Part shown: one piece after another, positions 5,002 to 27,509 of the stretch
How positions within the stretch are numbered: position 1 is the first letter of the stretch
Layout: each line of letters starts with the position of its first letter
Source: Phyllobacterium chamaecytisi
Lineage (GTDB): Bacteria > Pseudomonadota > Alphaproteobacteria > Rhizobiales > Rhizobiaceae
DNA length: 64,000 nt
Direction of reading: 5' to 3'
Assembly: GCF_020164455.1 (NCBI RefSeq)
Contig: NZ_JAIQWW010000005.1
Span: 1 to 64,000 of the forward strand
Position numbers and translations under genes: made by a program
Notes under the pieces: model-generated
What the model saw: the letters and a program-made list of their open reading frames with translations, nothing else
Databases searched by the model: none
What the model was told of the DNA's origin: nothing

Positions 5002-5026
5002 GGAACCCCGCCCCTTGGTGAACGTT
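5002..5026 (+). promoter_or_regulatory. Sigma-EcfG promoter of the PepSY-like gene
   Basis: GGAAC (5002-5006), 16 bases, then CGTT (5023-5026) matches the alphaproteobacterial general-stress promoter exactly. It ends 50 nt before the start codon at 5076. This is the only perfect site outside the stress island at 17-27.5 kb. Confidence 0.85.
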
Positions 5027-5075
5027 AACCTTATCAAATGGGCGGGATATTTGATTTGAAAAAAGGAAGACTGTT

Positions 5076-5393
5076 ATGTTGAAAAAAATCCTTATCGTCG
5101 GAGCAACGGCGTTAATCGCCATAACATCGGCTCCCCAAGCCTTTGCTCAGTCCATCCAGATTGGCCCTGACGGTGTTCGGCTACAAGAGCCACGGCCGGA
5201 ACGGGATTATCGCCGTTTTTCGGACATCAGTGAGCGCGAAGCCGTGCGTATCGCCAGAAGCGAAGGTCTTCGCGACGTTGACGACGTAAGACGCACGAGG
5301 TCAAGATTCGTCGTTGAGGGTATAGATCGCCGCGGAAACGATATGCGCGTCAGTGTGGATCGCCGTACTGGTGACGTCCTTTCCGTGCAATAA
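5076..5393 (+). CDS. Exported PepSY-like small protein, general-stress controlled
   Basis: The 105-residue product has a clear signal peptide (AFA/QS near residue 24) and a single small domain (about 45-105) with the PepSY-like pattern: a helix containing ISEREAVRIARSEG followed by beta strands and RRTGDVLSV. PepSY domains are often inhibitory or binding modules in the periplasm. The ribosome site is AAAGGAAG. It is monocistronic, with a perfect sigma-EcfG promoter upstream and a hairpin terminator right behind it, so I infer expression under starvation or stress. The binding partner is unknown. Confidence 0.8.
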   Translation: MLKKILIVGATALIAITSAPQAFAQSIQIGPDGVRLQEPRPERDYRRFSDISEREAVRIARSEGLRDVDDVRRTRSRFVVEGIDRRGNDMRVSVDRRTGDVLSVQ

Positions 5394-5408
5394 GCGCTGA
5401 ACCTGACG

Positions 5409-5438
5409 AAAGCCCGTCGCCGCAAGTGGCGGGCTTTT
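5409..5438. terminator. Rho-independent terminator, probably bidirectional
   Basis: AAAGCCCG and CGGGCTTT form an 8-bp stem followed by a short T run on the + strand and A run on the other. It sits between the convergent genes ending at 5393 (+) and 5459 (-) and can serve both. Confidence 0.85.
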
Positions 5439-5458
5439 CCATGCCGACAGTCGGTCGC

Positions 5459-5755
5459 TTAGTAGGCTGATGTATCGCCATAGTCTTCAGTGAGATCATA
5501 TAGACGCGACAGTTCCAGCTCGACTGCGGTGAAGAATGCTCCGACCTGCTCATCCTGTTCGTCCTCTTTGACCCCAATCCGCTCAAGATGCCGAAACAGC
5601 GTATCGGCAATCTGGTTACGATAGGCTTCCGCCTGCCGATCGGTAGCCTTTTCCATCAGTTTCGCCGCCACGTCGCGAATCTTCGCCACACGCTTTGTCA
5701 GTGGGAACGCAATGATCTGACATGGGATCGGGGATTCAGCTTCGAACATACTCAT
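5459..5755 (-). CDS. Small cytoplasmic protein, DUF6074-like
   Basis: A 98-residue acidic protein without membrane segments or signal. The N-terminal IIAFPLTKRVAKIRDVA followed by a helical stretch with RNQIADTLFRHLERIGV resembles the short DUF6074 proteins common in rhizobia, whose function is unknown. The start has a GGGAAGAG ribosome site. It is transcribed away from the gene at 6001, from which it is separated by a 245-bp AT-rich gap containing tandem palindromes. Family assignment is from memory. Confidence 0.6.
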   Translation of the reverse strand: MSMFEAESPIPCQIIAFPLTKRVAKIRDVAAKLMEKATDRQAEAYRNQIADTLFRHLERIGVKEDEQDEQVGAFFTAVELELSRLYDLTEDYGDTSAY

Positions 5756-5870
5756 ACTCTTCCCAGTTCGGCAACGCCGCGCTTACAATTGATTCGCCCA
5801 ACGATAAGGCGAAGGTTCCTAACAATGTGTTCAGCTATGTCCGGTCATGCCGTGTGGAACGCTCTGATTG

Positions 5871-5894
5871 GTTACGTAACAAGTTATGTAACAA
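5871..5894. promoter_or_regulatory. Tandem palindromic 12-mers, candidate operator
   Basis: GTTACGTAACAA is followed directly by GTTATGTAACAA. The first contains the perfect 10-bp palindrome GTTACGTAAC and the second differs at one base. They lie in the divergent gap between the genes starting at 5755 (-) and 6001 (+). The exact palindrome recurs at 7025-7034 inside the SDR gene, and TACGTAAC occurs again 20 bp before that gene (6470-6477). Confidence 0.45.
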
Positions 5895-6000
5895 GCCAGC
5901 GAACAGATTGTGTGTAACGAAACCACAATGTTGCCCGCTACGGCACGCATGCTTATTCAGGTTCGTGTAAAGTGATTCGCATTCGTTACGGCATTAACCC

Positions 6001-7483: not shown

Positions 7484-8734
7484 ATGACCTCATCTCCCCA
7501 AATCCCCGCAGTCGATCCCGTCAAGCTCGATCGTCTGGCGGAAGTAGCTATCAAAATTGGCTTGCAGTTGCAGCCCGGACAAGATCTCCTGATTACCGCC
7601 CCGCTTGCCGCAGTTCCCCTGGTGCGGCGGATCACAGAACATGCCTACAAGGCAGGAGCCGCTCTCGTTACATCGCTATACAGCGACGAAGAAGCCACCC
7701 TTATGCGCTATCGCAACGCGCCGGACGAAAGTTTCGATCGCGCCACAGGCTGGCTGTTTGAGGGCATGGCGAAAGCCTTTTCTGCCAATACAGCTCGGCT
7801 TGCAGTTGCCGGTGACAATCCGATGCTGCTCTCATCGGAGGACCCGGAGAAGGTCTCCCGCGCAAACCGGGCACAGTCACGCGCTTATCAGCCTGCGTTG
7901 GAAAAAATCACCAATTTCGAAGTCAACTGGAACATCGTTTCGTACCCGAATCCATCCTGGGCGAAGCAAGTATTTCCCGATCAGGATCCCGAAGTGGCTA
8001 TAACCATGCTCGCTAATGCAATTTTTGCGGCGTCGCGTGTCGATCTGGACGATCCTGTCAGCGCCTGGCGTGATCACAACGCCGCCTTGCGTAAGCGCAC
8101 AAAATGGCTGAACGAGCGCACTTTCTCGGCACTGCATTTCAAAGGACCGGGCACGGACCTCACAGTTGGCCTCGCAGATGAACATGAATGGCATGGTGGT
8201 GCTTCGGTTGCGAAGAATGGCATAACCTGCAACCCGAATATTCCCACCGAAGAAGTTTTCACGACACCCCACGCACTGCGGGTCAATGGCCATGTTTCGA
8301 GCACCAAGCCACTTTCCCACCAGGGCACGCTCATCGAAAATATCCAGGTTCGCTTCGAAGGTGGCAGGATTGTCGAAGCCAAGGCGACGCGGGGCGAAGA
8401 AGTCTTCAACAAGGTGCTTGGCACTGACGAGGGCGCACGTCGTCTCGGCGAAGTGGCGCTTGTCCCTCATTCCTCCCCGATTTCAGCATCGGGCCTGTTG
8501 TTCTTCAACACACTTTTCGATGAAAACGCTGCAAGCCACATCGCGCTCGGCCAATGCTATTCGAAATGCTTCGTCAATGGCGGCGAGCTGACGACCGATG
8601 AAGTTGCAGCGCGTGGTGGTAATAAGAGCCTCATTCATATCGACTGGATGATCGGCTCTGGCGAGATCGATGTAGACGGCATCAACAAGGACGGTTCGGC
8701 TGTGCCCGTGATGCGCAAGGGCGAATGGGTTTGA
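7484..8734 (+). CDS. M29-family aminopeptidase
   Basis: The 416-residue protein matches the thermophilic aminopeptidase (M29, AmpS/PepS) family, metal-dependent cytoplasmic enzymes that remove N-terminal amino acids. The expected metal-site segments are visible in order: NIPTEEVFTTP, FDENAASHIALG and LIHIDWMIG, giving the Glu-Glu-His-His-Asp set. Length fits the family. It stands 140 bp after the SDR and is closed by a strong terminator. Confidence 0.9.
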   Translation: MTSSPQIPAVDPVKLDRLAEVAIKIGLQLQPGQDLLITAPLAAVPLVRRITEHAYKAGAALVTSLYSDEEATLMRYRNAPDESFDRATGWLFEGMAKAFSANTARLAVAGDNPMLLSSEDPEKVSRANRAQSRAYQPALEKITNFEVNWNIVSYPNPSWAKQVFPDQDPEVAITMLANAIFAASRVDLDDPVSAWRDHNAALRKRTKWLNERTFSALHFKGPGTDLTVGLADEHEWHGGASVAKNGITCNPNIPTEEVFTTPHALRVNGHVSSTKPLSHQGTLIENIQVRFEGGRIVEAKATRGEEVFNKVLGTDEGARRLGEVALVPHSSPISASGLLFFNTLFDENAASHIALGQCYSKCFVNGGELTTDEVAARGGNKSLIHIDWMIGSGEIDVDGINKDGSAVPVMRKGEWV

Positions 8735-12786: not shown

Positions 12787-15700
12787 TGCGACCCTACACG
12801 GAACTTGCTGTCACTAGTAATTTTTCCTTTCTTGAAGGCGCCTCGCAACCGCATGAACTTGTGCAGGCTGCAGCCATACTCGGGCTCGATGGTATAGGCA
12901 TCGCTGACCGCAACACACTGGCAGGTGTGGTGCGGGCCTATAAGGCTCATAATGAGCTCAAGGAAAAAGCTGGAATACGACTGAACCTCTTTATCGGATG
13001 CAGGCTGGTCTTTATTGACGACACGCCAGATCTGCTCGTCTACCCACGCGACCGTACAGCCTATGGCCAGCTCTGCCGTCTTTTGAGCGAAGGCAAGGAT
13101 CGGGCGAAAATCAAGGGTGAGTGCCACCTTCTTCTCGAGGATTTTCTTTTCCGAGCGAAAGGTTTTCAAATCGCGGTCGTTCCGCCGTTACGGGCAGATA
13201 AAATCTTAACTGCGTTCCTGAGAAAACTTGTCATTGCGGCACCGGGTTCAGTCTGGCTTGCTTTGGCAATGCCGCATCAGGGTGCAGACCGGCGGTATGG
13301 TGAAAAGCTGGCGCATATTGCAACAGGGGCCAATGTTCCCTTGCTGGCGATCAATAATGTGCTCTATCACACCGCTGCACGGCGGCCGTTGCAGGATGTA
13401 CTGACCTGCATTCGCGAACATGTCACGATCGATACGGCCGGACGCAAGCTGGAAAAGAATGCGGAACGGCATTTGAAATCGCCTGATGAAATGCAGCGAC
13501 TTTTCCGGCATTTCCCCGCAGCACTTCAGGAAACGCAGCGTTTCGTTGAGCCGATCGGCTTTTCGCTCGATCAGCTGAAATATGACTATCCTGACGAACC
13601 AGTGCCACCGGGCAAGACACCGCAACAATATCTATCCGAGGAAACGTGGAAAGGTGCTGCACAGCGCTATCCTGAAGGCATTCCGGAAAAGGTATGTGCA
13701 ATTTTGCGGAAAGAGCTGGCGATAATCGAAGGGCTTGAATATGCACCCTATTTCCTCACGGTTTATGACATCGTCAAATATGCCCGCTCGCAGAATATTC
13801 TTTGCCAGGGCCGCGGCTCCGCTGCCAATTCCGCGGTCTGTTATTGTCTTGCTATCACAGCAGTTGATCCAAAACACACGGATGTCTTGTTCGAACGGTT
13901 CCTCTCGGCGGAGCGGAAGGAACCACCGGATATCGATGTCGATTTCGAGCATGAACGCCGCGAAGAAGTGATGCAATGGGTCTATGAGCGTTATGGTCGC
14001 AGTCGAGCGGCCATCGTGGCCACTGTCATCAGCTACCGCCCGCGCAGCGCTATCCGTGATGTGGGCAAGGCTTTGGGGCTGACTGAAGACGTTACTGCTG
14101 CGCTGGCCAATATGGTCTGGGGCAGCTGGGGCACAGCGGTTGAGAAGAACGAGGTTCGGCAAGCTGGACTGGATCCCGATAATGTCATGATACGGCGCGC
14201 TGTCCGACTCGCGACCGAATTGATTGGTTTTCCACGCCACCTTTCCCAGCATGTGGGTGGATTTGTACTGACGCAGGAGCGCTTGGACGAAACCGTCCCT
14301 GTTGGTCCTGCAGCTATGAAAGACCGCACTTTCATAGAGTGGGATAAGGATGACATCGACGAACTCAACATCATGAAGGTGGATGTGCTGTCACTTGGTA
14401 TGCTGACATGCATTCGCAAGGCTTTTGATCTCATTCATCTGCATGGGGGCAAACGTTATGAACTGGCAACGATCCCCCAGGAAGACCCCGCGGTCTATGA
14501 CATGCTCTGCAATGCCGATTCCCTTGGCGTGTTCCAGGTGGAAAGCCGCGCACAAATGAACATGCTGCCGCGCCTTCGACCAAGAGAATTCTATGATCTG
14601 GTGATCGAGGTTGCCATCGTTCGTCCTGGTCCAATCCAGGGCGATATGGTTCATCCCTATTTGCGCCGTCGCAATAAAATAGAGAAAGTCCACTATCCGT
14701 CTCCGTCCCCTAAGCATGGTGACAAGGACGAACTGAGAAATGTTCTCGGCAGGACCCTTGGTGTACCTCTATTCCAGGAACAAGCCATGCGCATTGCCAT
14801 CGAGGCAGCAAAATTTACTCCCGACGAAGCCAATAAATTGCGCCGTTCCATGGCCACATTCCGCAATGTCGGCACAATCAGCGAAATGGAAGGGAAAATG
14901 GTGGAGGGGATGGTCCGCCGTGGTTATGAGCGGAGCTTTGCCGAAAACTGCTTCAACCAGATCAAGGGCTTTGGTGAGTATGGTTTCCCGGAAAGCCACG
15001 CGGCGAGTTTTGCGATTCTCGTTTATATTTCTTCCTGGATCAAATGCCATCATCCTGCGACATTCGCGGCGGCACTTTTGAACTCACAACCGATGGGTTT
15101 TTATGCTCCCGCACAGATCATCCGCGATGCACGCGAGCATGGCGTCGAGGTACGTCCCGTCGATATCAACTTCAGCGAATGGGACAATACGCTGGAACGC
15201 GTCGACAAGAATAATCTTGCCTTGCGTCTAGGCTTTCGACAGGTCGAAGGCTTTTCGGAAGCCTGGGCGGACGAAATATGCGCAAAACGAAAGCACCACT
15301 ATAGTGACATCGAAGAACTGCGCCGCCTGACGCGGCTGGAAAGACGAGCCTTTATTCTCCTCGCTGATGCCGATGCGTTCCGTTCGCTGGAAATTGATCG
15401 CCGCGAAGCACTATGGGCAGTCCGTCGTTTCCCTAACAATGAAACCCTGCCACTCTTCCAGGTTGCTGAAACGAATGAATTGGCAAGGGAAGCCGAAACC
15501 AGACTGCCGCAGATGAAAATGTCCGAGCACGTCATTGCCGACTATGAATCGACGCGGCTTTCGCTCAAAGGCCATCCAATGCAGTTCTTGCGTGAAATGC
15601 TGACTGCGGAAAACATTGTAACATGCAAGCAGGCGAACAGTCTGAGCAACAATCGACGGGTCAAACTTGCCGGCGTGATTACTGTCCGGCAAAGGCCAGG

Positions 15701-17729: not shown

Positions 17730-19697
17730 TCACTCGCAAACCTCTTTAACCACCGCTTCTAACGACGATACAAAAAAACAGTTGCGTGTTGATCCAACGA
17801 TCTTTTCGCCATCAACTTCGCTCCCATCTTCCGCCCAGAATCCGATGACAATCTTTACGCGTGCGTTCCGCCGTCTTATGCGGCGGACGAGATAGCGTGC
17901 GTGAGCGACCGAGGACGTGTTCAGGTAGCTTATGTAGATTGCGTTGACGCTAGCAAGATCAAGCTTGCCGATGTTGATCGCCTCAAGCTCCTCGTGAGAA
18001 ATGTCGCGAACGTCAAAATCCTTGCGCTCGAGAATATCACCAAGAACAACAGCTGCGGCATCGTCGAGGTCGCCGCGTCCGCCTGCAGACACGATTGTTC
18101 TCGGCGTTTCTGGTTTTACCTTCTCTTTATTAGCCACAACTTTCTTGGAGCCCCCTTCGGGTTCGGCTCCTTTTTCTTCTTCGTCCTCAACGTCGTGATA
18201 TTCCGACAGGTTCTCGACGAGAAGGATCATGCTTTGCGCCACACGATTGCGCCTAGGCTCGTCAAGCACGCCCCGGCCTCTGTCGTGTTCGGCGAGCAGC
18301 AGCGCGGGAATAGCCACCGAAGCGTAATAATCTGTGATCGTTGCCGATTGCAGATACTCCTCTGCCTTTTCTGTTGCTTCGTCCGGATCGCCGGATAACA
18401 GCCGTTGATATAGCTGCTGCGGTGGAAGGAGCACCGGCTCATTTCCAAGAAGAACATCCAAAAATTCGAACTTTGGCACGTGTCTTCCGAGAACGACCAG
18501 GCACACGGTGAGCGGTGTTGAAAGGATCAATCCGATCGGCCCCCAAATCCAGGTCCAGACAATGGCGGCCATCAGAATCGCAACGGGGGACAACCCCGTC
18601 TTGGAACCGTAGAGAAGCGGCTCCATGATATTGCTGCTGATGAGCTCCAGCACGATGAACAAGGCGGCAGTCCAGAAGAGCACCATCCAACCCGGATCGA
18701 CTGCCAGCGACAGAATAATCGGAAATGCGGCTGCAATGATTGGTCCAATGTAGGGCACAAAACGGAGAACTATCGCCAGCATGCCCCACAGCATCGGGTT
18801 GGGAATGCCAATGAACCATAGCCCGATCCCGATTGGGACGCCGAAGCTGATATTGATGATCAACTGCATCAGCAAATATTGGCCGACGCGCTTGCCGGCA
18901 TCATGTAGAGCTGTCGTCGTTCGGTGAATATCGCTGGCTCCCACCAGCTTTATGAAACGGTCGCGCAAATCTTCACGCCGCATCAGCATGAATATGACTA
19001 CCACAATCACAATGCCGATTGTCGCCAGGGGCTGGATCAACGGACCGGCAAAGGTCTGCAGCAGACTTAAGGGATCTAGCGGTGGATTGCGGATTTCCAC
19101 AGGTACGGGTTTGTTAGGATCTATGCCGCGCAAGGGTGGTAAAGGGGCAGGCGGTGCAACATTTTGGGGAGGTTGTCGCGCCGGGTCTGGTTTGGCCGCT
19201 GCCTGGTTGTCGCTTTCAAAGCGCTCCACTTCGTCCGATCGACCAATTTCGTCGCTGAAGCGTTTGAACATGCGCGCGCCGCGATCAAAAATGCTGTTCC
19301 CCGACTGCGCATCCTTGATCGCGCGGATCTTCGTCTCGATATTATATTGATAGCTTGGCAGATTTTGCGCGAGCACAGTAAGCTGGCTCGCGACAATGCT
19401 GACGAAAATGAAGATCACAAGAAAGGCCGTTGTCACAACACTTAGTACGGCAACGCCTTTCGGCACACCCGAGCGGTGCAAGCGGGTGACCAATGGTGAC
19501 AGCGCGAAGGTCAAAAGCAGAGCCAGCGCCAATGGCACGAAAATTTCACGGGCGAAATAAAGCGCTGCTACAATGGCTATCGCGACAATTATTGGTGGGA
19601 ACTGGTTCGCCGCATTCGCCGAAACTGGCGTATAGATCGATCGTTGGGTTACCCGTTCGACAGCGCGCGACTTCCCCCCGGCCCCTTCAGAAGGCAT
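17730..19697 (-). CDS. AI-2E-family transporter with large cytoplasmic C-terminus
   Basis: The 655-residue protein contains the AI-2E/PerM-type membrane domain: two early hydrophobic segments near residues 30-75, then several more between about 215 and 400, including the characteristic ISFGVPIGIGLWFIGIPNP and RFVPYIGPIIAA blocks. Typical family members end soon after the last membrane segment; this one carries about 250 extra soluble residues with an acidic EDEEEKGAEPEG linker and a terminal alpha/beta region (from about 535). The substrate is unknown; AI-2 export is known only for one branch. It lies among stress genes but I find no sigma-EcfG promoter before it. Confidence 0.85.
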   Translation of the reverse strand: MPSEGAGGKSRAVERVTQRSIYTPVSANAANQFPPIIVAIAIVAALYFAREIFVPLALALLLTFALSPLVTRLHRSGVPKGVAVLSVVTTAFLVIFIFVSIVASQLTVLAQNLPSYQYNIETKIRAIKDAQSGNSIFDRGARMFKRFSDEIGRSDEVERFESDNQAAAKPDPARQPPQNVAPPAPLPPLRGIDPNKPVPVEIRNPPLDPLSLLQTFAGPLIQPLATIGIVIVVVIFMLMRREDLRDRFIKLVGASDIHRTTTALHDAGKRVGQYLLMQLIINISFGVPIGIGLWFIGIPNPMLWGMLAIVLRFVPYIGPIIAAAFPIILSLAVDPGWMVLFWTAALFIVLELISSNIMEPLLYGSKTGLSPVAILMAAIVWTWIWGPIGLILSTPLTVCLVVLGRHVPKFEFLDVLLGNEPVLLPPQQLYQRLLSGDPDEATEKAEEYLQSATITDYYASVAIPALLLAEHDRGRGVLDEPRRNRVAQSMILLVENLSEYHDVEDEEEKGAEPEGGSKKVVANKEKVKPETPRTIVSAGGRGDLDDAAAVVLGDILERKDFDVRDISHEELEAINIGKLDLASVNAIYISYLNTSSVAHARYLVRRIRRRNARVKIVIGFWAEDGSEVDGEKIVGSTRNCFFVSSLEAVVKEVCE

Positions 19698-19817
19698 GAA
19701 AACCTACCGGCATGACATCCATAAAAACCCATCTCCATTGAAACCCCGCGACAGAAACGAAGTCGGCTCAATTTGGTTGCATTCCACTTCTTGGTCGTGG
19801 TCCGAGCCCGTCACGTG

Positions 19818-19842
19818 GGAACCAAATTCTGATTCGGGTGTT
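19818..19842 (+). promoter_or_regulatory. Imperfect sigma-EcfG promoter of DUF3309 gene
   Basis: GGAAC, 16 bases, TGTT (CGTT expected). The element ends 38 nt before the start at 19880, within the 26-53 nt range of the perfect sites in this window. Confidence 0.55.
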
Positions 19843-19879
19843 TCGGAGCTGTAAAGTTTCCCAGGAGAGGGAGGAAAGA

Positions 19880-20038
19880 ATGCCACTCACGACAATTCTC
19901 ATCATCATTCTCATCTTGGCACTTATCGGGGTCTTTCCAACTTGGCCTCACGCCAGGAATTGGGGCTACGGCCCCTCTGGACTCGTGGGAATAGTCTTGG
20001 TCGTTCTGTTGATTTTGCTTCTGATGGGCAGAATTTAA
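19880..20038 (+). CDS. DUF3309-family small membrane protein
   Basis: The 52-residue protein has two hydrophobic segments flanking TWPHARNWGYGPSG, the DUF3309 signature. The start at 19880 follows an excellent GGAGGAAA site; the upstream in-frame ATG adds unrelated residues and is rejected. Such two-helix proteins are typical of general-stress regulons in Alphaproteobacteria. An imperfect stress promoter lies upstream, and a still smaller membrane ORF follows 60 bp later. Confidence 0.85.
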   Translation: MPLTTILIIILILALIGVFPTWPHARNWGYGPSGLVGIVLVVLLILLLMGRI

Positions 20039-20098
20039 CGCGCTTCTTAGACCTTTATTACGAACGATCATCTGACATAGCTGAAAAGGAGTTCTAAA

Positions 20099-20182
20099 AT
20101 GTTACGAGGTGTTTTGCTTTGGCTCATTGGTCTGCCGCTTCCGATCATTCTCATTTTGTGGTTGATGGGCTATCTTTCATAA
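20099..20182 (+). CDS. 27-residue single-helix membrane microprotein
   Basis: An ATG with a strong AAGGAG site seven bases upstream opens a 27-codon frame beginning MLRGVLLWLIGLPLP and ending in LS. The whole peptide is one hydrophobic helix with a basic N-terminal residue and two prolines. Similar MLR-LLWLLGIP-type microproteins occur widely in rhizobia, function unknown. It lies between DUF3309 and DUF883 genes, both stress-linked, and may be cotranscribed with the former. Confidence 0.65.
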   Translation: MLRGVLLWLIGLPLPIILILWLMGYLS

Positions 20183-20234
20183 GCTTTGGAAAGGATGCCC
20201 GCTAGTAGACTACTTGCAGCGGCCTCCAATGCAT

Positions 20235-20259
20235 GGAACAAATACTGAAGACCAACGTT
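20235..20259 (+). promoter_or_regulatory. Sigma-EcfG promoter of DUF883 gene
   Basis: GGAAC (20235-20239), 16 bases, CGTT (20256-20259): perfect match, ending 40 nt before the start at 20299. Confidence 0.9.
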
Positions 20260-20298
20260 CCTGACCGATATCCGGCTGTTTTCTCAAGGAGTTTTTCT

Positions 20299-20637
20299 AT
20301 GGCTACGGTTTCTTCAAAAATTCGCAAAGCGGTTGACGACGCGACCGATAGCAATCCCGATTTACAAGCCCAGGTTGCGGCCCTGAAGGAGGACATCGCG
20401 AATATTGCAGCAACCCTTGCCAAGATAGGAAAGAGTTCTGCCAAGGACGCCACGCGCAGCGCAGCAAGTTCCTATGAAACCGCAAAAGTCCGCGGTGAGG
20501 AAACGTTGGACGATCTTCGCTTGCAGGCTCGTGAGCTTGAAGACCAACTCACTGAGACTGTTCGTGAACACCCTCTGACCACGATTGCCGTCGCCGCCGG
20601 TGTCGGTTTTCTTCTTGCCCTGATCGCCCGCCGCTGA
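20299..20637 (+). CDS. DUF883 (ElaB/YqjD-like) membrane-anchored stress protein
   Basis: The 112-residue protein has a long amphipathic helical region (about 1-90) and a C-terminal membrane anchor (TIAVAAGVGFLLALIARR), the layout of ElaB/YqjD/DUF883 proteins, which in Escherichia coli are stationary-phase proteins linked to inner membrane and ribosomes. Start 20299 has an AAGGAG site; 66 nt of upstream open frame contains the promoter and is not coding. It is probably cotranscribed with the next gene, which starts one base after its stop. Confidence 0.9.
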   Translation: MATVSSKIRKAVDDATDSNPDLQAQVAALKEDIANIAATLAKIGKSSAKDATRSAASSYETAKVRGEETLDDLRLQARELEDQLTETVREHPLTTIAVAAGVGFLLALIARR

Positions 20638-20638
20638 C

Positions 20639-21118
20639 ATGCTCAAACTGTTAGCTCCACTTTTTACCAGCGTCGCCGCGGGTGAAGTTGGCCTCGTGAT
20701 AAACAGATTGAAGCGCAACGCGGTCTTCGCTGGCATTATCGCTGTGCTGGCAATTATCGGCGTGATTTTTCTGGTTGTGGCTGCCTATATCGCCCTTGCC
20801 GAGCGCTACGGCCAAATGCATGCGTCGTTGATCCTCGCCGGTGGCGCGTTCGGCTTGGCTATCATTACTTATATAATCATGAAGCTCGTCGAACGCGCCG
20901 CGCGAAATCGCCAGCGCGAACGCGCCAAGGTTGACACATCTGCTCTTCTTACAGTTGCAGCTCTTGCTGCAGCACCGGTTGTTCTGCGATCACGCGCGCT
21001 CATGATGCTTGCAGTTCCTCTCGTGGCTTTCGCTGGCCTTTCGCTTCTGACAAAACCAAAGAAGAAGAAAAGACGGCGTCCTGAAGACACCACCTCATCT
21101 ACGGGCCAGGATATTTGA
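20639..21118 (+). CDS. Holin-like (DUF1469/YqjE-type) membrane protein
   Basis: The 159-residue protein has two close hydrophobic segments near 30-55 and 62-82, an RNRQRERAK basic stretch, a second hydrophobic pair (about 100-137) and a very basic KKKKRRR tail. The pattern fits the phage-holin-like/YqjE proteins that accompany DUF883/YqjD genes; it need not be a holin. It follows DUF883 with a one-base gap, so it shares the stress promoter. Its last 24 nt overlap the end of the convergent kinase gene. Confidence 0.75.
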   Translation: MLKLLAPLFTSVAAGEVGLVINRLKRNAVFAGIIAVLAIIGVIFLVVAAYIALAERYGQMHASLILAGGAFGLAIITYIIMKLVERAARNRQRERAKVDTSALLTVAALAAAPVVLRSRALMMLAVPLVAFAGLSLLTKPKKKKRRRPEDTTSSTGQDI

Positions 21119-22627
21119 GTGATCGCGGATGGGCATGGAAATCAAAGCCTCCATGCCGGTTTCCGGATAACTCAATCTGACGCTGCTCGATAGAACCTTA
21201 TCCAAACTGCGCTCGATCAATCTTTCACCAAGCCCTCGCGCTTCCGGCGGCAGCACCTTCGGACCGTTGGATTCTACCCAGTGGATGGTAACGCGGGATT
21301 CATCGAGGCCGGGTTCTATTTGCCATGACACCCGCACGCGACCGTCGGCGACGGACAGGGCGCCATGTCTAGCTGCATTGGTGGCAAGCTCGTGCAGCGC
21401 AATGCCAAGCCCGAGTGCGTGGTCCGGCGGTAAAACCATGTCCTCCCCTGCGAGCTCGATCTGTCGAGGATCAAAACCCGCATAAGGCTCCACTTGCTTT
21501 GCAATCAGATCGATCAGACTGATGCCGCTCCATTCTCGATCGGAAAGCAATGTATGTGCTTCCGAAATGGCCCGAAGACGTCCTGAAAACGCCTCCATGA
21601 ACTCGGCTGGATCGGATGTTCGATTGAGCGTCTGCCGTGCCAGCGATTGCAACATTGCCAAGGTGTTTTTGACGCGGTGATTGAGCTCGCGCAGCAGGAG
21701 CCGCGTTTTCTCGGCGGCTTTTTTTGTGTCCGTAATATCAATATTGACACCAACCGCGACCACGGGTCTTCCCTGGGCATCGCGTTCGAAAATGCGGCCG
21801 CGTCCTAGAAGCCATTGACCCGATGACGCAGCGCGGAATTCTCCGACATAATCCTGATTACTGACCAGCGCGCGTGTGAAGGCCGATTTCATGATTGGAA
21901 AATCGTCAGGGTGCATTGCCCGGAAGACGTCTTCGCCGCTGACAGGTTGATCGGGACTGAGACCAAGCATGGAATAGGCCATCCTGTTGCCACTGAACTT
22001 GCCCGTGCGCAGATCCCATACCCAGCTGCCGACATTGCCGACCTCAAGTGCCATGGAATTGCGATCTTCATCCTGATGCAACTTCGCCATGGCATCGGTT
22101 TCCGTGCGGGATTCACGTTTGAGCGAGATAAACGAACCGGCAAGTCTTGCCAGATGCATGAGTTGCTTCTGCTGGGTTAAAGCGAATTCCGTTCGGGGCT
22201 CGTCGGACAGGACGCTGAGAGCTCCAATACACTCGTTGGCGACGCAGATTGGTGCAACGGCCAAGAACCGGAGATTCGGCCTATGGGTCACAGCATCGAT
22301 TTCGGAATAGCGAACATCCTCGGCGGCGTTCAGAATGATCAGGCAACCCCTCTCAGGTGCCGCCAGTGAACTGGCTTCAATAGCCCAGATATTGGCTATC
22401 CCAAGACGGCCTGCATTGGACAAGATACGGCTTCGTTTCTCATCCACAAGCGTGATCTGTGCGCCGCTGCTGTTGGACATCGACAATGCGAGTTCCGCCA
22501 AACAATGGAACTCGTTGTCATGCTCGCGAATTTCAAGCGTCTTCAAACTCGAAAGAACATCACGACGCGACGACCCCGAAAGAAATTCTAACGTGCTTTC
22601 TGAAATGTTTTCCGATCTCATATCCAC
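21095..22627 (-). CDS. HWE-family sensor histidine kinase (GAF-PAS-HWE)
   Basis: The 510-residue soluble kinase has a GAF domain (about 40-170), a PAS domain (about 195-302; WVWDLRTGKFSG, then GRPVVAVGVNIDITD) and an HWE kinase core with phospho-acceptor His317 in LRELNHRVKNTLAMLQSLA, an ATNAARHGAL N-box and the diagnostic WxE in IHWVES. HWE/HisKA_2 kinases are the family that phosphorylates PhyR in the general stress response. A perfect sigma-EcfG promoter lies 53 nt upstream, so the kinase is probably both input and output of that system. No membrane segment is present. Start is GTG at 22627 or ATG at 22621. Confidence 0.88.
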   Translation of the reverse strand: MDMRSENISESTLEFLSGSSRRDVLSSLKTLEIREHDNEFHCLAELALSMSNSSGAQITLVDEKRSRILSNAGRLGIANIWAIEASSLAAPERGCLIILNAAEDVRYSEIDAVTHRPNLRFLAVAPICVANECIGALSVLSDEPRTEFALTQQKQLMHLARLAGSFISLKRESRTETDAMAKLHQDEDRNSMALEVGNVGSWVWDLRTGKFSGNRMAYSMLGLSPDQPVSGEDVFRAMHPDDFPIMKSAFTRALVSNQDYVGEFRAASSGQWLLGRGRIFERDAQGRPVVAVGVNIDITDTKKAAEKTRLLLRELNHRVKNTLAMLQSLARQTLNRTSDPAEFMEAFSGRLRAISEAHTLLSDREWSGISLIDLIAKQVEPYAGFDPRQIELAGEDMVLPPDHALGLGIALHELATNAARHGALSVADGRVRVSWQIEPGLDESRVTIHWVESNGPKVLPPEARGLGERLIERSLDKVLSSSVRLSYPETGMEALISMPIRDHSNILARR

Positions 22628-22679
22628 ATGATGGCTCGCATCGCCACCCTACTCGTACCATCGATACAGCTCCATCAAG

Positions 22680-22704
22680 AACGCAACCCTTTGTGCTTTG
22701 TTCC
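22680..22704 (-). promoter_or_regulatory. Sigma-EcfG promoter of the HWE kinase gene
   Basis: On the minus strand: GGAAC (22704-22700), 16 bases, CGTT (22683-22680): perfect match, 53 nt before the kinase start. Confidence 0.9.
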
Positions 22705-22710
22705 TTATTT

Positions 22711-22735
22711 GGAACATTTATCCAGCACCTTCGTT
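22711..22735 (+). promoter_or_regulatory. Sigma-EcfG promoter of the 73-residue gene, back to back with the kinase promoter
   Basis: GGAAC (22711-22715), 16 bases, CGTT (22732-22735): perfect match, 26 nt before the start at 22761. The two divergent -35 elements are separated by only six bases (TTATTT). Confidence 0.9.
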
Positions 22736-22760
22736 TTCGTTAGATCGAAGGAGGCCGAAA

Positions 22761-22982
22761 ATGCTTGAAGCGAATGACATTCTATCTGACGAGGGTCTGA
22801 GCAGGGTCCAGAAGATTGCCAAACTGGAAGAACTGCTGAGCGAGGCTCGGGGACTACAGCGAGCGGCCACGGAAAGTGGTATGGATCCTGATGATGGTGT
22901 AACACGAAATTTGCGGGACATTGAACTTGCCCTTGGTCATCTGAATGCTGAAAAGCCGGAAACAGGTGCGGCAACGCTCTGA
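22761..22982 (+). CDS. Small acidic protein of unknown function, general-stress controlled
   Basis: The 73-residue product (MLEANDILSDEGLSRVQKIAKLEELLSEA) is helical, acidic and soluble. I do not recognise a family. Start 22761 is set by a near-perfect AAGGAGG site; 63 nt of open frame upstream contains the promoter. It lies between two sensor kinase genes and is expressed from a perfect sigma-EcfG promoter divergent from the HWE kinase, so a role in tuning stress signalling is a guess. Confidence 0.75.
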   Translation: MLEANDILSDEGLSRVQKIAKLEELLSEARGLQRAATESGMDPDDGVTRNLRDIELALGHLNAEKPETGAATL

Positions 22983-22989
22983 CGACCGA

Positions 22990-24378
22990 TCACTCATCCT
23001 TTTGGGTGGCCTCCTCTGACTGTATCTCCATGAGGCCGGGTAGCGCCACCTTTACTGAGGTGCCCCCGCCCGGATGGACAGAGTAGACAACCGATCCGTC
23101 GAATTGCTGGCAAAGCTGATTGACGATAAGCGACCCAAGTCCAGAGGAGCGTTTTTTCGATGTCTTCTGCATGCCGATGCCGGTATCGGCAATCTCCAGC
23201 CGCAGAACGTCATCTTCACCCCGCACGAGATCGATTCTTATCTCTCCGGCCTTGCTGCCCGGAAAAGCGTGTTTTATGGCGTTCATCGTCAACTCGCCGA
23301 TGATTATTCCCAGCGTCGTCGCATCGCGGGAGCTCAGGTTTATTGGGGCAAGCTCTGCGACAATCCTGATATCTCGTTCATGGGCGGTCGACTGCTTGAT
23401 ATCAGCGATGACGTCCGGCAAATATTCATCCGCACGAACAGTCTCATGATCCTTTCCAAGCCGCAGACGTCTGTGGGCCGACGAAATGGTTTGAATTCTG
23501 TCGCGGGCTGCCCCGAGTGCGGCGCGTATTTCCTCCGACGATACGTCCCGCATCTGAATACCGAGTAGCGACGAGACCGTCGCAAGCGAATTTCCTATGC
23601 GATGGTCGGAATCCTGCAGCAGTGTTTCCACGCGAGCCCGCTCCCGTTTTGCCAAGAGCATGGCTTTTTCAAGTTCCGCCGTCCTGTTTTGGACCATACT
23701 TTCCAGAATTGTTTTTTCTGAAAGAAGCAATGTTTGTCCCTCTGTCAGCTTGCGTACATAACGTCTGGTTCGGTTCGCAAGAATGACTGCCAGAATGAGA
23801 GCACCCCCGAGGGAAGAGAGCGCAGCTATTGTTAGCCAGCTTCTCATTTGATCCACAGCAATGTTTCGTTCAATCAGCCTTCGATCTTCTTCTGCGAGAA
23901 AGCCGTCGACCGTCTTGTTGATTTCATCGAGTTGACCAACGCCGAAATTTGGTCCGAGGGACTCACGCGCTTCCATACTCATCCCCGCAACCGCCTGGGC
24001 AATCGCCGCATCCACGTTTCTCTGTTTTGCTTTCGCCAGATCGCGGATTCGAGTCGCCGTAGCTTGCTGCCGCGGATTTCCCTTGGTCATTTCCGTAAGC
24101 GTATTGAGGCTCTCGTCGAGCCGGGCTGTTACGTTCCGATAATGATCGAGTAACGGGGTACTGTTCGTCAAGATGAACCCGCGCTGACTGTTGTGAGCCT
24201 CGGTCATCAATGACAGCGAACCATACGCCTGTTCGCGCACCTTATAGGTGGCGAGGATATCGTCGATCTGATTGTTGACGCTGCGCGCTAGGATAATCGT
24301 GGAGCCGGCTGAACCAATAATCATGCCGAGCGAAAGGACGATCGCCAAGCCCCTTAGCGGCCTCTGTGAAAAGCTCAT
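22990..24378 (-). CDS. Membrane sensor histidine kinase (CHASE3-HisKA_2)
   Basis: The 462-residue kinase has membrane segments at about 11-31 and 182-202 enclosing a periplasmic helical CHASE3-like domain, a coiled linker, and a HisKA_2 core with His259 in DHRIGNSLATVSSLLG followed by an HATPase domain (NAIKHAF, DTGIGM). This class contains PhyR kinases. The start at 24378 places the first helix right after the N-terminus; 47 upstream residues in frame look non-coding. It lies 49 bp downstream of, and in the same direction as, the Crp-like gene, so the two may be cotranscribed. No sigma-EcfG promoter was found for it. Confidence 0.85.
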   Translation of the reverse strand: MSFSQRPLRGLAIVLSLGMIIGSAGSTIILARSVNNQIDDILATYKVREQAYGSLSLMTEAHNSQRGFILTNSTPLLDHYRNVTARLDESLNTLTEMTKGNPRQQATATRIRDLAKAKQRNVDAAIAQAVAGMSMEARESLGPNFGVGQLDEINKTVDGFLAEEDRRLIERNIAVDQMRSWLTIAALSSLGGALILAVILANRTRRYVRKLTEGQTLLLSEKTILESMVQNRTAELEKAMLLAKRERARVETLLQDSDHRIGNSLATVSSLLGIQMRDVSSEEIRAALGAARDRIQTISSAHRRLRLGKDHETVRADEYLPDVIADIKQSTAHERDIRIVAELAPINLSSRDATTLGIIIGELTMNAIKHAFPGSKAGEIRIDLVRGEDDVLRLEIADTGIGMQKTSKKRSSGLGSLIVNQLCQQFDGSVVYSVHPGGGTSVKVALPGLMEIQSEEATQKDE

Positions 24379-24427
24379 GACAACTCTGCGCCACCACAAC
24401 AAATGATGTGCCCTCCATGGGAATACC

Positions 24428-25183
24428 CTAGATATATGGTCGAAGCGTGCCCGGCAAACCCTGCCATCCCGATATGTCCAGGAGCACGTCCTCCTCAAGG
24501 ATCTCGCACCCGCGATCAAGCCAACGAAGGGCGTTACGAGCCGCGAGCTTCTTCAACGTCTTGTTAGTGTGAACAATCGAAAGGCCTAGCGTATCAGCCA
24601 CATGTTGCTGCGTCAGCGGCACCATCAGCTTGTTACTCCTGACCATCCCTACTGATTTGGCACGCTGGAACACGAAGGCAAAAAGATAGGCTGCCCTCTC
24701 CAAGGCCGTGCGCCGTCCTACGCTCAGCAGGATTTCGTCGAGCATTTGTTCCTCGCGGGAAGCAATCCAGGTTATGTCATAGGCAAGTTCGGGATAGTTT
24801 CGGAAGAGGTTCGCAAGTTTATCGCGCTGAAATACACAAAGTATCATCGGCGACAAAGCCTCGATCGAATGCTGCATCTCACGCATCACAGATCCCTGCA
24901 GACCAATCAGATCGCCAGGAAGAACATAGTTCAGGATCTGCCGGCGACCGTCTTCCAATGTCTTGTAGCGGAAGCCCCAGCCCGAAAGCACGGTAAAGAG
25001 GTGCGCACTATTGGCACCTTCCACAAGGACAGTCGTACCGGCGTCGGCAACCAGCTCGCCCGTTTTGAAGTCCGTGAGGAACGATATTTCTTCTTTGGTA
25101 TGCCGTTGAAAATGCGGAAACTCCTGCAATGGACATTTGTCACAGGGGTACTGCCGGGCAGCCGAAGTTTTCGTGGTTTTCAT
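24428..25183 (-). CDS. Crp/Fnr-family transcriptional regulator
   Basis: The 251-residue protein has an N-terminal cyclic-nucleotide-binding-type beta-roll (about 45-140; PGDLIGL) and a C-terminal Crp-type helix-turn-helix (LTQQHVADTLGLSIVHTNKTLKKL). A CDKCPL motif near residues 14-19 resembles the N-terminal cysteines of Fnr-like proteins, but only these two clustered cysteines are present, so an iron-sulfur cluster is doubtful. Ligand unknown. It is divergent from the receiver gene at 25326, separated by 142 bp without a recognisable promoter. Confidence 0.88.
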   Translation of the reverse strand: MKTTKTSAARQYPCDKCPLQEFPHFQRHTKEEISFLTDFKTGELVADAGTTVLVEGANSAHLFTVLSGWGFRYKTLEDGRRQILNYVLPGDLIGLQGSVMREMQHSIEALSPMILCVFQRDKLANLFRNYPELAYDITWIASREEQMLDEILLSVGRRTALERAAYLFAFVFQRAKSVGMVRSNKLMVPLTQQHVADTLGLSIVHTNKTLKKLAARNALRWLDRGCEILEEDVLLDISGWQGLPGTLRPYI

Positions 25184-25325
25184 TGTGGCCGTTCAGTTGA
25201 TGTCGGGTTACAAGTTATCATGCCGCCTGTGAATTGCTTAACATTTCTTCGCAATCCGCATGTCTTAGTTAAATGACATTGCGATTCGCTCCTGTGCATA
25301 AGAAGTCCCCACAGGAGCATCTTAA

Positions 25326-25733
25326 ATGGAATTGAAAGGCATGCGACTTCTGGTCCTCGAAGATGAATATCTGATTGGACTAGAGCTGGAGCGCATCGCG
25401 GAAGAGTGCCAGGCGCAATCCGTCGATCTGGTTTCGAATGTTAGTGAACTACTTGCCTGGATCGAAAGCGAGGCCGAATGCGACATTGCAATCATCGAGG
25501 TCGAAGCGCACGGCGTTTCTTCGTTGCAGGCGGCTACCCTATTGCAATCGCGAGGCGTGCCGCTCGTTTTCACCACTGCGTATGATGTGGAAGCAGGTGG
25601 CATAGATGGCTTTGTAGGAGTTACCGTTGTCGGTAAACCCTACGGCAAAAGTCAAATTATCAAAGCTGTAGCCGCCTTATCGCCGTCGAAAAAGCGATTC
25701 AATGAAACCGGCTCCTCAGGCGAACTTGTTTGA
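25326..25733 (+). CDS. Single-domain receiver protein with Glu at the phospho-acceptor position
   Basis: The 135-residue protein is a lone CheY-like receiver. The acidic pair is present (LEDE, 11-14), as are the switch threonine (FTTAY, T84) and conserved lysine (GKPYG, K104). The phosphorylation site strand reads AIIEVEAHG, giving Glu58 where an Asp is required. Asp-to-Glu changes can mimic the phosphorylated state, so it may act constitutively, or it may sequester a kinase. An AGGAG site precedes the ATG. Its last 18 nt overlap the end of ecfG on the other strand. Confidence 0.85.
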   Translation: MELKGMRLLVLEDEYLIGLELERIAEECQAQSVDLVSNVSELLAWIESEAECDIAIIEVEAHGVSSLQAATLLQSRGVPLVFTTAYDVEAGGIDGFVGVTVVGKPYGKSQIIKAVAALSPSKKRFNETGSSGELV

Positions 25734-26267
25734 TGTGACCTGCGTTGCGATCGAATCAGGACCGTAGTCCACCTCGCCCTGAATCTCGAGCAATTCCTGC
25801 AGACGTGTTCTGGCACGGCTCACACGGCTTTTGATCGTTCCGACAGCGCACTCGCAGATTTCGGCAGCCTCTTCATAAGAAAAGCCCGACGCGCCGACAA
25901 GTATGATCGCTTCACGCTGATCGTCGGGCAGTTTTTCGAGCGCTTTGCGAAAATCCTGCAAATCCAGCGAGCCATATTGTGCCGGATGAACGGACAACTG
26001 CTCGGTGAATATCCCATCGGAATCCTGAACCTCGCGCCCGCGCTTGCGCATCTGGCTGTAGAATTCGTTGCGCAAGATCGTAAACAGCCAAGCCTTGATA
26101 TTGGTGCCGGGCTCGAACGAATCCTGTTTGGCCCACGCCTTCATAATCGTATCCTGCACAAGGTCATCTGCCCTGTCCGGATTGCCGATCAGTGACACTG
26201 CAAATGCTCGCAGCTTCGGCAAGGCAGCAATCAAATCTCTCTTGAAGTCGGCAGATTCATGTACCAT
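25716..26267 (-). CDS. ecfG: EcfG, general stress response sigma factor
   Basis: The 183-residue ECF sigma factor has region 2 (NPDRADDLVQDTIMKAWAKQDSFEPGTNIKAWLFTILRNEFYSQ) and region 4 (LEKLPDDQREAIILV, then YEEAAEICECAVGTIKSRVSRART). It would direct RNA polymerase to GGAAC-N16-CGTT promoters, several of which are nearby. It lies 11 bp downstream of nepR and opposite phyR, the standard alphaproteobacterial arrangement. Its activity is controlled by partner switching: NepR binds it, and phosphorylated PhyR removes NepR. Confidence 0.93.
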   Translation of the reverse strand: MVHESADFKRDLIAALPKLRAFAVSLIGNPDRADDLVQDTIMKAWAKQDSFEPGTNIKAWLFTILRNEFYSQMRKRGREVQDSDGIFTEQLSVHPAQYGSLDLQDFRKALEKLPDDQREAIILVGASGFSYEEAAEICECAVGTIKSRVSRARTRLQELLEIQGEVDYGPDSIATQVTSNKFA

Positions 26268-26278
26268 TCAACAGCCCG

Positions 26279-26482
26279 TTATTTGGATGATTGCGTATGA
26301 TTGCGTTCAGCCTCATCAAGCTTTTCAAGAAGATCGAGAAAACGAGCCGGTATTTCTTCCTCCTGCACCGATGCGTAAAGCGCGCGTAACTTCAGACCAA
26401 TTTCTGTTTCAGCGTTCTTAATGTCGCGGCGGCGAACTCGCACCTTTTCAGGAGCGTCAATAGAATTCTTTTTGGCGTTCAT
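26279..26482 (-). CDS. nepR: NepR, anti-sigma factor
   Basis: The 67-residue protein holds the NepR core IGLKLRALYASVQEEEIPARFLDLLEKLDEAE. It binds EcfG to block it and binds the sigma-like domain of phosphorylated PhyR to release it. The start at 26482 gives the usual length; the longer frame of 95 residues runs into the intergenic region and is rejected. It is the first gene of the nepR-ecfG operon. Confidence 0.92.
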   Translation of the reverse strand: MNAKKNSIDAPEKVRVRRRDIKNAETEIGLKLRALYASVQEEEIPARFLDLLEKLDEAERNHTQSSK

Positions 26483-26571
26483 TGTCTGATCTTTGCTGGT
26501 GGTTCGTCGCTGTAGTATGAATAGAGCCTGTACCCAAGGCACATTAATGATGACAATTCCTGACAAAGAAG

Positions 26572-26611
26572 AAAGTTCCGTTACAGGGAACTTTTTTTTT
26601 GCGAAAGTGTT
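26572..26611 (+). promoter_or_regulatory. Imperfect sigma-EcfG promoter of phyR, with inverted repeat and T tract
   Basis: AAAGTTCC (26572-26579) and GGAACTTT (26587-26594) form a perfect 8-bp inverted repeat. The right arm provides GGAAC, followed after 16 bases by TGTT (26608-26611), 57 nt before phyR. The left arm provides a minus-strand GGAAC pointing at nepR but has no CGTT at the right distance. Nine T residues follow the repeat, so it also looks like a terminator; no + strand gene ends just upstream, so I favour the promoter reading. Confidence 0.5.
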
Positions 26612-26667
26612 TCAGGAAGGAACTCACCACGCCTCAGTACCCCACCCGAAACAGGGAAATCACTATA

Positions 26668-27462
26668 ATGTCATTGTCCACCCGGATAGCCCCTCATCTG
26701 CCGTATCTTCGCCGTTTCGCTCGCGCTATCACCGGCTCGCAATCTTCTGGCGATGCCTATGTTGCGGCGACGCTTGAAATTCTCATCACCGACGTTTCCC
26801 TTTTCCCTCAAACAGGCTCCGATCGTGCTAGCCTCTACAAGCTGCTGATCAAACATTTCAACTCCGTCAATGTCCGCCCTCTCGAATTGAAATCCGAGTT
26901 CGGCTGGGAGAGACATGCAGCGGCCAACCTCACTGCAATCGCGCCGAAAGCCCGTCAGGCCTTCCTGCTGATCAGCCTTGAAGGTTTCAGCCAGGCCGAG
27001 ACGATGGAAATTCTCGAAGTCACGGATGGCGAACTTTACGGGCTGTTGGACGAGGCATCCGTCGGCATTTCGAAACAGATCGCAACCGACATTCTGATTA
27101 TTGAGGACGAACCTTTGATCGCCATGGATATCGAGCACATGGTCCAGACCCTCGGGCACCGCGTGGTTGGCATTGCACGGACGCGCGACGAGGCGCTCAA
27201 GATTTACTCCGCCACCCATCCGAGCATGATTCTTGCAGATATCCAGCTTGCGGATGGAAGCTCCGGTATCGACGCGGTGAACAACATTCTCAGCCAGGAT
27301 GCGGTTCCTGTTATTTTCATCACCGCCTTTCCCGAAAGATTGCTGACAGGAGAACGGCCGGAACCGACCTTCCTCGTTACCAAACCGTTCAATCCCGATA
27401 TGGTCAAGGCATTAATCACCCAGGCCCTGTTCTTTAAAGAGAGCAGCAAAGCCAAGGCGTAG
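26668..27462 (+). CDS. phyR: PhyR, general stress response anti-anti-sigma response regulator
   Basis: The 264-residue protein has an N-terminal sigma-like domain (about 1-135), which mimics EcfG to capture NepR, and a C-terminal receiver (about 140-260) with IIEDEPL, phospho-acceptor Asp191 in MILADIQLADG, the FITAFPERLL variant typical of this family and K in TKPF. Phosphorylation by HWE/HisKA_2 kinases opens the protein. The ATG at 26668 follows GGGAAA; an upstream in-frame ATG at 26599 lies inside the promoter region. It is divergent from nepR-ecfG. Confidence 0.95.
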   Translation: MSLSTRIAPHLPYLRRFARAITGSQSSGDAYVAATLEILITDVSLFPQTGSDRASLYKLLIKHFNSVNVRPLELKSEFGWERHAAANLTAIAPKARQAFLLISLEGFSQAETMEILEVTDGELYGLLDEASVGISKQIATDILIIEDEPLIAMDIEHMVQTLGHRVVGIARTRDEALKIYSATHPSMILADIQLADGSSGIDAVNNILSQDAVPVIFITAFPERLLTGERPEPTFLVTKPFNPDMVKALITQALFFKESSKAKA

Positions 27463-27484
27463 AGCGCGTTGCCCTCCTGCCTCG

Positions 27485-27509
27485 GGAACAAAACAGCGTC
27501 TTGCCCGTT
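27485..27509 (+). promoter_or_regulatory. Sigma-EcfG promoter of DUF1328 gene
   Basis: GGAAC (27485-27489), 16 bases, CGTT (27506-27509): perfect match, 30 nt before the start at 27539 and 23 nt after the phyR stop. Confidence 0.9.

Follow-up and report, generated by a model that had tools for sequence, protein, structure and literature searches.

Predicted EcfG promoters, including one of a candidate small RNA, at the chromosomal general stress locus of Phyllobacterium

The first 64,000 nucleotides of contig NZ_JAIQWW010000005.1 of Phyllobacterium chamaecytisi (the window below; contig C45, 350 kb) contain the genes for the σ factor EcfG, the anti-σ factor NepR and the response regulator PhyR. 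It is highly probable from the sequence that this is the chromosomal general stress locus of Phyllobacterium, at which EcfG would start transcription from ten sites, including one in front of a candidate small RNA, and that the promoters of the regulatory module itself are unequal. The nepR and ecfG genes lie together, and phyR, which encodes a σ-like and a receiver domain, is divergent from them at the same locus, as defined by Pfam matches and coordinates. EcfG is 100% identical to EcfG of P. trifolii and P. onerii, and the single NepR match in the whole genome is the one on C45. The PhyR-NepR-EcfG partner switch is well established for this family. The finding is a correct reading of a known system, of which the RNA and the promoter details are the new part.

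Exact EcfG-type sites around the module

The first-pass annotation of this sequence had listed six exact GGAAC-N16-CGTT sites (-35 and -10 boxes separated by 16 nucleotides), described as intergenic, facing a gene and ending 26-53 nt before its start codon. All six were found on the strands and at the positions given in Table 1 and, according to calls made with a custom in-frame hexamer caller (a rough tool; an earlier custom caller overlooked real genes), all six are intergenic and face a gene. The recomputed gaps are 25, 29, 34, 39, 49 and 52 nt, the range of 26-53 being obtained when one counts to the codon itself; for the HWE kinase, the start was taken at GTG, 22627. The chance level had been put at about 0.5 sites. 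Dinucleotide shuffles of the window agree with it (0.55 sites on average), and six sites were reached in none of 100 shuffles.

The genome (6.36 Mb) contains 91 exact N16 sites and 54 exact N17 sites, while the ten spacings from N18 to N27 together yield 605 sites (mean of 60.5 per spacing). In the 22.5 kb that hold the six exact sites of the window, 0.32 would be expected. When 91 sites were placed at random 5000 times, a 22.5 kb stretch with six sites arose in five trials and one with more than six in none. The signal is one of local density and not of genome-wide number. Sites were called promoter-like if they were intergenic and had a called start codon no more than 120 nt downstream. Three of the 91 N16 sites, being near the end of a stretch or repeated, were left unclassified; the other 88 are divided into 43 promoter-like, 31 genic and 14 other sites. 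As can be seen from the same stretches, the promoter-like share is 43/88 at N16 versus 14/97 at 18 control spacings (Fisher p 5e-7), and six promoter-like N16 sites lie within the 22.5 kb versus 0.15 expected. The position of N16 sites is more telling than their number.

Conservation of the sites in relatives

We compared 80 related ecfG loci (1.55 Mb), which had been chosen for chromosomal ecfG. In them, the two words have 230 occurrences with N16 and 100 with N17 spacing, against 3-26 for each of 18 other spacings. Exact N16 or N17 sites no more than 130 nt from the gene are present in front of phyR in 69 of 80 loci, DUF883 in 49 of 71, the gene of a 73-residue protein in 7 of 8, DUF1328 in 25 of the 26 loci that have the gene, csbD in all six that have it, and nepR in 5 of 80. 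In the six closest loci (L039-L044), the five targets near ecfG keep their site wherever the gene is found, and the letters of the spacers vary. The PepSY-like gene was found in 20/20 genomes of the genus (duplicated strains among L039-L044 and G001-G019 are counted once in all genome numbers), and in 18 of them an exact site lies 42-53 nt upstream of the aligned start of its best match; the distances in L218 and L219 were measured to that aligned start, there being no start codon.

No other evidence for function of the sites is as strong as their retention in front of the same genes while spacers change. Taken together with the NepR, PhyR and σ domains recognised by Pfam and with the identical Rhizobium etli motif, which was derived from regulated genes (PMC3892343; this and the papers below are cited from parts of their text), this positional conservation argues that the exact sites are very probably EcfG general stress promoters, as the first-pass annotation had proposed. 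The sites and their conservation are observed; their use by EcfG we infer.

The HWE kinase and the 73-residue protein are transcribed away from each other, and the -35 boxes of their promoters are 6 bp apart. This gap is exactly 6 bp, with variable letters, in 10 distinct genomes as judged by sequence and in one more (G019) by coordinates. Such constancy of the gap, without constancy of its letters, suggests coupling or mutual exclusion of the two promoters. The 73-residue protein is present in 17 of the 19 other genomes of the genus (74-100% identity); among 59 genomes, it has three distant matches (42-49%).

The annotation had also placed the targets mostly within 11 kb of nepR-ecfG/phyR and had described a compact stress island of regulator and regulon. 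Of these targets, five do lie no more than about 8.5 kb from ecfG, but the PepSY-like gene is 20 kb away. The local concentration is real, but 37 of the 43 promoter-like N16 sites are elsewhere in the genome. We give an even chance to the view that the concentration merely reflects an ancient, conserved order of genes and has no regulatory meaning as an island. The many outside sites speak for such a view, as does the PepSY-like gene, which keeps its site in genomes that place the gene and the small RNA described below on different contigs, so closeness to ecfG is not needed. Conserved gene order alone accords less well with the rarity of six sites per 22.5 kb under random placement and with the ecfG loci of many relatives, which also have sites before DUF883 and DUF1328.

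Putative unequal promoters of phyR and nepR-ecfG

The exact pattern overlooks four sites in the window, three with variant -10 boxes (upstream of phyR, nepR-ecfG and DUF3309) and one with a 17-nucleotide spacer. A scan of the whole window with relaxed boxes retrieved the three variant sites in two spacings versus 7 promoter-like sites over 18 control spacings, which is an excess. Conservation supports each of the three as a putative promoter; for DUF3309, for instance, 8 of 12 related loci have an xGTT site before the gene, which is CGTT in two of them.

Among the 80 related loci, two have an odd nepR-phyR distance and seven lack a back-to-back pair; in the other 71 (of 78 regions that could be read), the -35 boxes of nepR and phyR stand back to back. 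The gap between the boxes is 7-9 bp in 67 of the 71. The phyR side carries CGTT at N16 or N17 in 63 of these 71 loci and TGTT in 6. The nepR-ecfG side carries xATT at N16 in 64, CATT being found in 57 (52 of 64 when unique sequences are counted). N16-CATT sites number 73 across the 80 loci; 64 precede nepR, two precede phyR and seven are elsewhere.

Divergent nepR-ecfG and phyR units that both depend on EcfG are usual and already known (PMC4814048), and the -10 box is likewise known to vary (PMC7083833, PMC6599016); we make no claim that the xATT box of nepR-ecfG is unpublished. In the EcfG regulon of Sphingopyxis granuli, the GGAAC -35 element is shared with the sites studied here and CGTT, TGTT and CATT are all in use as -10 boxes. 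CGTT is the strongest of them in vitro, and a change from CGTT to CATT or TGTT lowers in vitro transcription by the Sphingopyxis σ factors (PMC7083833).

Several observations weigh against the promoter assignments. The reversed motif at N16 occurs 133 times in the genome versus 91 for the motif itself. We set this control aside as a null, because reversed words are commoner across spacings in aggregate, and used other spacings of the same words instead; the bare motif is weakly in excess genome-wide by the latter measure and shows no excess by the former. Of 71 related loci with a match to the HWE kinase, only 12 show a site before it, though many of these matches are other kinases, and the PepSY-like gene has no site in two of the 20 genomes of the genus. 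As for the inequality of the module promoters, the six nearest Phyllobacterium loci have AATT, TATT or GATT, not CATT, upstream of nepR and TGTT upstream of phyR. Moreover, nepR2 of Sphingopyxis carries CGTT (PMC7083833), unlike nepR-ecfG here and in most Rhizobiales loci examined, which has xATT.

A candidate EcfG-driven small RNA

The N17 site lies about 190 nt before csbD, with the N16 site of csbD itself between them. Directly after it, a near-invariant GC-rich hairpin was found in all seven Phyllobacterium sequences first compared, in which the surroundings diverge. A covariance model built from these seven sequences was used to search 99 genomes with strict filters and gave, for every one of the 20 genomes assigned to the genus, a single strong match with an E value of 1e-12 or lower. 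All 20 copies stand directly behind an exact site with N16 or N17 spacing, as established by script for 19 of them and by reading for L204. Three weak matches (L206-L208, E 3e-5 to 1.6e-4) were not counted, as no EcfG-type site was found upstream of the matching core.

For alignment, 20 distinct sequences were retained out of 27 matches; the other seven, all weak and lying antisense across the RNA, were left out. Pairing is kept in 98.8% of the alignment cells, six pairs show changes on both sides, and none of 500 shuffles reached the observed value in four of five covariation measures. The first hairpin covaries too. The loop of the second hairpin, UGUUCCCCCGUG, is identical in 19 of 20 copies and has an extra C in the remaining one. 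The copy in the window folds with a z-score of -3.73, which was equalled by 2 of 200 shuffles, and no ATG was seen between the expected RNA start and the end of the hairpin. The predicted transcript would be about 70 nt long. The candidate and ecfG are separated by about 8 kb in the window and by no more than 10 kb in L039-L044.

Other results count against a separate RNA. The fifth covariation measure (further pair types) was reached by 67 of 500 shuffles, and the U-tract is poor. An Rfam search of positions 15,000-29,000 returned four matches (E 2.2-3.2), none near the gathering score and none on the candidate. The model found no match in the ecfG loci of P. salinisoli (L048) and P. leguminum (L075), records named Phyllobacterium. 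When the loop was compared with 491 translation-start regions, 55 reached -14 kcal/mol or lower versus 67-147 for 20 shuffled loops, i.e., there was no enrichment.

The hairpin at 17595-17628 might then be a mere terminator of the AI-2E-family gene, whose stop codon (17730) precedes it by about 100 nt, or part of the leader of csbD, which lies downstream; the empty Rfam search and the negative target search are compatible with this. We nevertheless consider it unlikely, since an exact EcfG-type promoter precedes the hairpins in 20/20 genomes of the genus, covariation extends to the first hairpin, the loop is nearly constant although a terminator needs no fixed loop, and csbD has an EcfG-type promoter of its own downstream of the hairpin. 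A small RNA with its own promoter is the reading that we prefer.

In R. etli, the noncoding RNA ReC64 was shown to be EcfG-dependent by 5' rapid amplification of cDNA ends and fusions, and it lies downstream of phyR-tcrY (PMC3892343), whereas the Phyllobacterium candidate is located beside csbD, on the other side of ecfG. Our model weakly matches the last hairpin of sequences at the ReC64 position (L116, E 0.004; L112, 0.013; L111, 0.1); matches of similar score were also obtained just after ecfG in L070 and L074, alongside those at the ReC64 position. An EcfG-like site (CGTT or CATT) followed within 130 nt by a C-rich run is present beyond phyR, in the ReC64-like region, in 41 of the 80 related loci, which is an uncontrolled count. 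Three of the seven N16-CATT sites lying outside nepR and phyR upstream regions are at the ReC64-like position of L111, L112 and L114 (Sinorhizobium-like; near 8605-8637).

The regulon elsewhere and a second ecfG cluster

Of the 37 genes preceded by outside promoter-like sites, 36 were scanned with Pfam (a 38-residue one was omitted). They include four DUF892 and four DUF982 genes, Ku, OsmC, uracil-DNA glycosylase, DUF3008, DUF3072, DUF4142, DUF899, BA14K, BrkB, transglutaminase and a glycosyltransferase of family 20, the family of trehalose-phosphate synthase; 11 of the 36 have no match or only one below the cut-off. By these assignments, the predicted genomic targets belong to typical stress families.

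The genome-wide search proposed by the first-pass annotation showed the six sites to be concentrated at this locus, but also revealed a second concentration, around a plasmid-type ecfG paralogue on contig C15. Eight exact sites are present there in 66 kb (1717-67757; L119-L122), of which five are promoter-like; the sites at 1717 and 26700 are not listed as intergenic, and the one at 16473 has no called gene close by. Promoter-like targets include DUF892, DUF4142, DUF982 and a PAS kinase. The σ factor that lies amid the sites is 45% identical to EcfG, 92% identical to one on a megaplasmid of P. zundukense and 57% identical to R. etli plasmid σ factors. A 20 kb stretch of C15 matches the same megaplasmid (87% identity over 37% of the query), where the σ factor gene adjoins genes annotated as general stress protein, PepSY, DUF892, KGG and catalase. 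Positions 16000-30000 of the window gave no match in the plasmid collection. The paralogue has no NepR of its own, the only match of the genome being on C45; given the plasmid-like stretch and this lack, it corresponds in type to EcfG2 of R. etli, which is carried on a plasmid.

The sites in the window might be used mainly or partly by this EcfG2-type factor instead of the EcfG of the locus. The eight exact sites around the paralogue lend some weight to this, and both R. etli σ factors recognise the phyR promoter (PMC3892343). The sites are, however, kept in many loci chosen for chromosomal ecfG, and in R. etli it is EcfG1 that has the larger role at these promoters (PMC3892343). Predominant or shared use by the paralogue is, in our judgement, quite improbable, and we retain the EcfG of the locus as the predicted user of the sites.

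Two further groups of sites were seen. On C3 (105476-118690; L009-L011), three promoter-like N16 sites within 13 kb, in front of DUF982, DUF892 and a gene of unknown family, may form a third small cluster. On C21 (45488-45517; L144), two exact sites overlap head to head as a near-palindrome, which is also present in G009 and is perhaps an inverted repeat rather than two promoters.

Features of the locus

Table 1. Promoters, genes and RNA features of the window (promoter and target assignments are predicted)
Feature	Position	Strand	Evidence
EcfG-type promoter (N16, CGTT) of PepSY-like gene	5002-5026	+	exact site
PepSY-like secreted protein, predicted EcfG target	5076-5393	+	PepSY_2 E 0.0017, under curated cut-off
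CsbD-like protein, predicted EcfG target	17282-17473	-	CsbD E 5e-16
EcfG-type promoter (N16, CGTT) of csbD	17508-17532	-	exact site
Candidate EcfG-driven small RNA	17588-17657	-	both ends inferred
Small RNA hairpin 2, loop UGUUCCCCCGUG	17595-17628	-	
Small RNA hairpin 1	17636-17656	-	
EcfG-type promoter (N17, CGTT) of candidate small RNA	17665-17690	-	N17 search
Candidate EcfG-type promoter (N16, TGTT) of DUF3309 gene	19818-19842	+	relaxed scan
DUF3309 small membrane protein	19880-20038	+	E 8.5e-24
EcfG-type promoter (N16, CGTT) of DUF883/holin-like pair	20235-20259	+	exact site
DUF883 protein	20299-20637	+	DUF883_C E 1.3e-9
Holin-like membrane protein	20639-21118	+	Phage_holin_3_6 E 3e-8
GAF-PAS-HWE histidine kinase, predicted EcfG target	21095-22627	-	HWE_HK E 4.2e-29
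EcfG-type promoter (N16, CGTT) of HWE kinase	22680-22704	-	exact site
EcfG-type promoter (N16, CGTT) of 73-residue protein gene	22711-22735	+	exact site
73-residue protein, predicted EcfG target	22761-22982	+	no Pfam match
CHASE3-HisKA_2 sensor kinase	22990-24378	-	CHASE3 E 3.5e-23, HisKA_2 E 1.1e-17
EcfG σ factor	25716-26267	-	Sigma70_r4_2 and Sigma70_r2
NepR anti-σ factor	26279-26482	-	PF18557 E 2.6e-15
Candidate nepR-ecfG promoter, variant -10 (GGAAC-N16-AATT)	26555-26579	-	relaxed scan
Candidate phyR promoter (GGAAC-N16-TGTT)	26587-26611	+	relaxed scan; 7 bp from nepR -35 box
PhyR response regulator with σ-like domain	26668-27462	+	PhyR_sigma2 E 4.1e-24, PhyR_sigma-like E 6.3e-19, Response_reg E 1.1e-12
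EcfG-type promoter (N16, CGTT) of DUF1328 gene	27485-27509	+	exact site
DUF1328 small membrane protein, predicted EcfG target	27539-27703	+	E 3.5e-15

The GAF-PAS-HWE histidine kinase is a possible input to PhyR. The motif scans of the window found no EcfG-type site upstream of the CHASE3-HisKA_2 kinase gene. Adjoining ecfG, at 25326-25733 (+), a receiver-like single-domain protein is encoded that has no Pfam match; in the alignment, Glu appears to replace the usual phospho-acceptor Asp in Phyllobacterium and in most of the aligned relatives, L051, L067 and L106 having Asp, and the Lys-Pro motif is retained. Between DUF3309 and DUF883 there is an open reading frame for 27 hydrophobic residues (20099-20182, +), matched in 5 of 80 related loci; a similar one of 25 residues was called on C15 at 27616.

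Discussion

By analogy with known systems, PhyR phosphorylated by HWE/HisKA_2 kinases would remove NepR from EcfG, and free EcfG would then start transcription at the ten sites of the window: the six exact ones, the three whose -10 box is variant, and the one with 17 bases between its boxes. This last site most likely drives the candidate RNA (about 70 nt), which would pair with G-rich mRNA through its C-rich loop and may thereby serve as a post-transcriptional arm of the response, like GsrN of Caulobacter. The two module promoters stand back to back and are predicted to be unequal, with the stronger CGTT in front of phyR and xATT in front of nepR-ecfG in relatives; the unequal boxes would probably make feedback on the σ factor weaker than feedback on PhyR. 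The bulk of the regulon would lie elsewhere, including the plasmid-type cluster around the second ecfG.

The closest published counterpart is R. etli, where EcfG1, NepR and PhyR form the same module with the same GGAAC-N16-CGTT motif, and where a second EcfG on a plasmid and an EcfG-dependent noncoding RNA near the locus are likewise present (PMC3892343). In Sinorhizobium meliloti, the RpoE2 regulon was mapped by RNA-seq, whereas the regulon considered here is predicted; RpoE2 motifs were reported upstream of 23 small RNAs, and rsiA1 and rsiB1 are RpoE2-dependent (PMC3616915). GsrN is made by the EcfG-type factor σT and binds mRNA via a C-rich loop, and in Rhizobiaceae, GsrN-like RNAs have been predicted close to the stress locus (PMC5869019). 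Our candidate resembles GsrN in its EcfG-type promoter, in its nearness to the core genes (as in most relatives) and in its C-rich loop, but this loop belongs to the second hairpin and not to the 5' part, and the candidate is predicted from sequence. The Phyllobacterium RNA may therefore work like GsrN; we liken it to GsrN and do not call it GsrN because it is placed differently and shows no clear homology. In the literature searched, we found no paper on Phyllobacterium with EcfG, or on Phyllobacterium with a small RNA and the general stress response.

A more ambitious proposal is that a genus-specific, EcfG-driven small RNA acts as the post-transcriptional arm of the response and that many Rhizobiales have unequal back-to-back promoters in which xATT keeps the feedback on ecfG weak and restricts it to the chromosomal EcfG. 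We offer it tentatively and regard it as possible but doubtful. R. etli EcfG2 recognises the phyR promoter and not the ecfG1 promoter (PMC3892343), and the conserved xATT box is a candidate reason for this preference; the box comparison covered Rhizobium relatives such as L090, L096 and L102 in place of R. etli CFN42 itself. If the proposal holds, the activation of phyR, but not of ecfG1, by R. etli EcfG2 would have an explanation.

Of the results that extend the finding, the most useful are the candidate small RNA, the xATT box upstream of nepR-ecfG and the second, plasmid-type cluster of sites. The locus provides, for a plant-associated genus, a map of predicted general stress promoters that can be tested and adds to it a candidate small RNA with strong comparative support, while the conserved difference between the two module promoters could account for the published own-promoter preference of the two EcfG proteins of R. 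etli.

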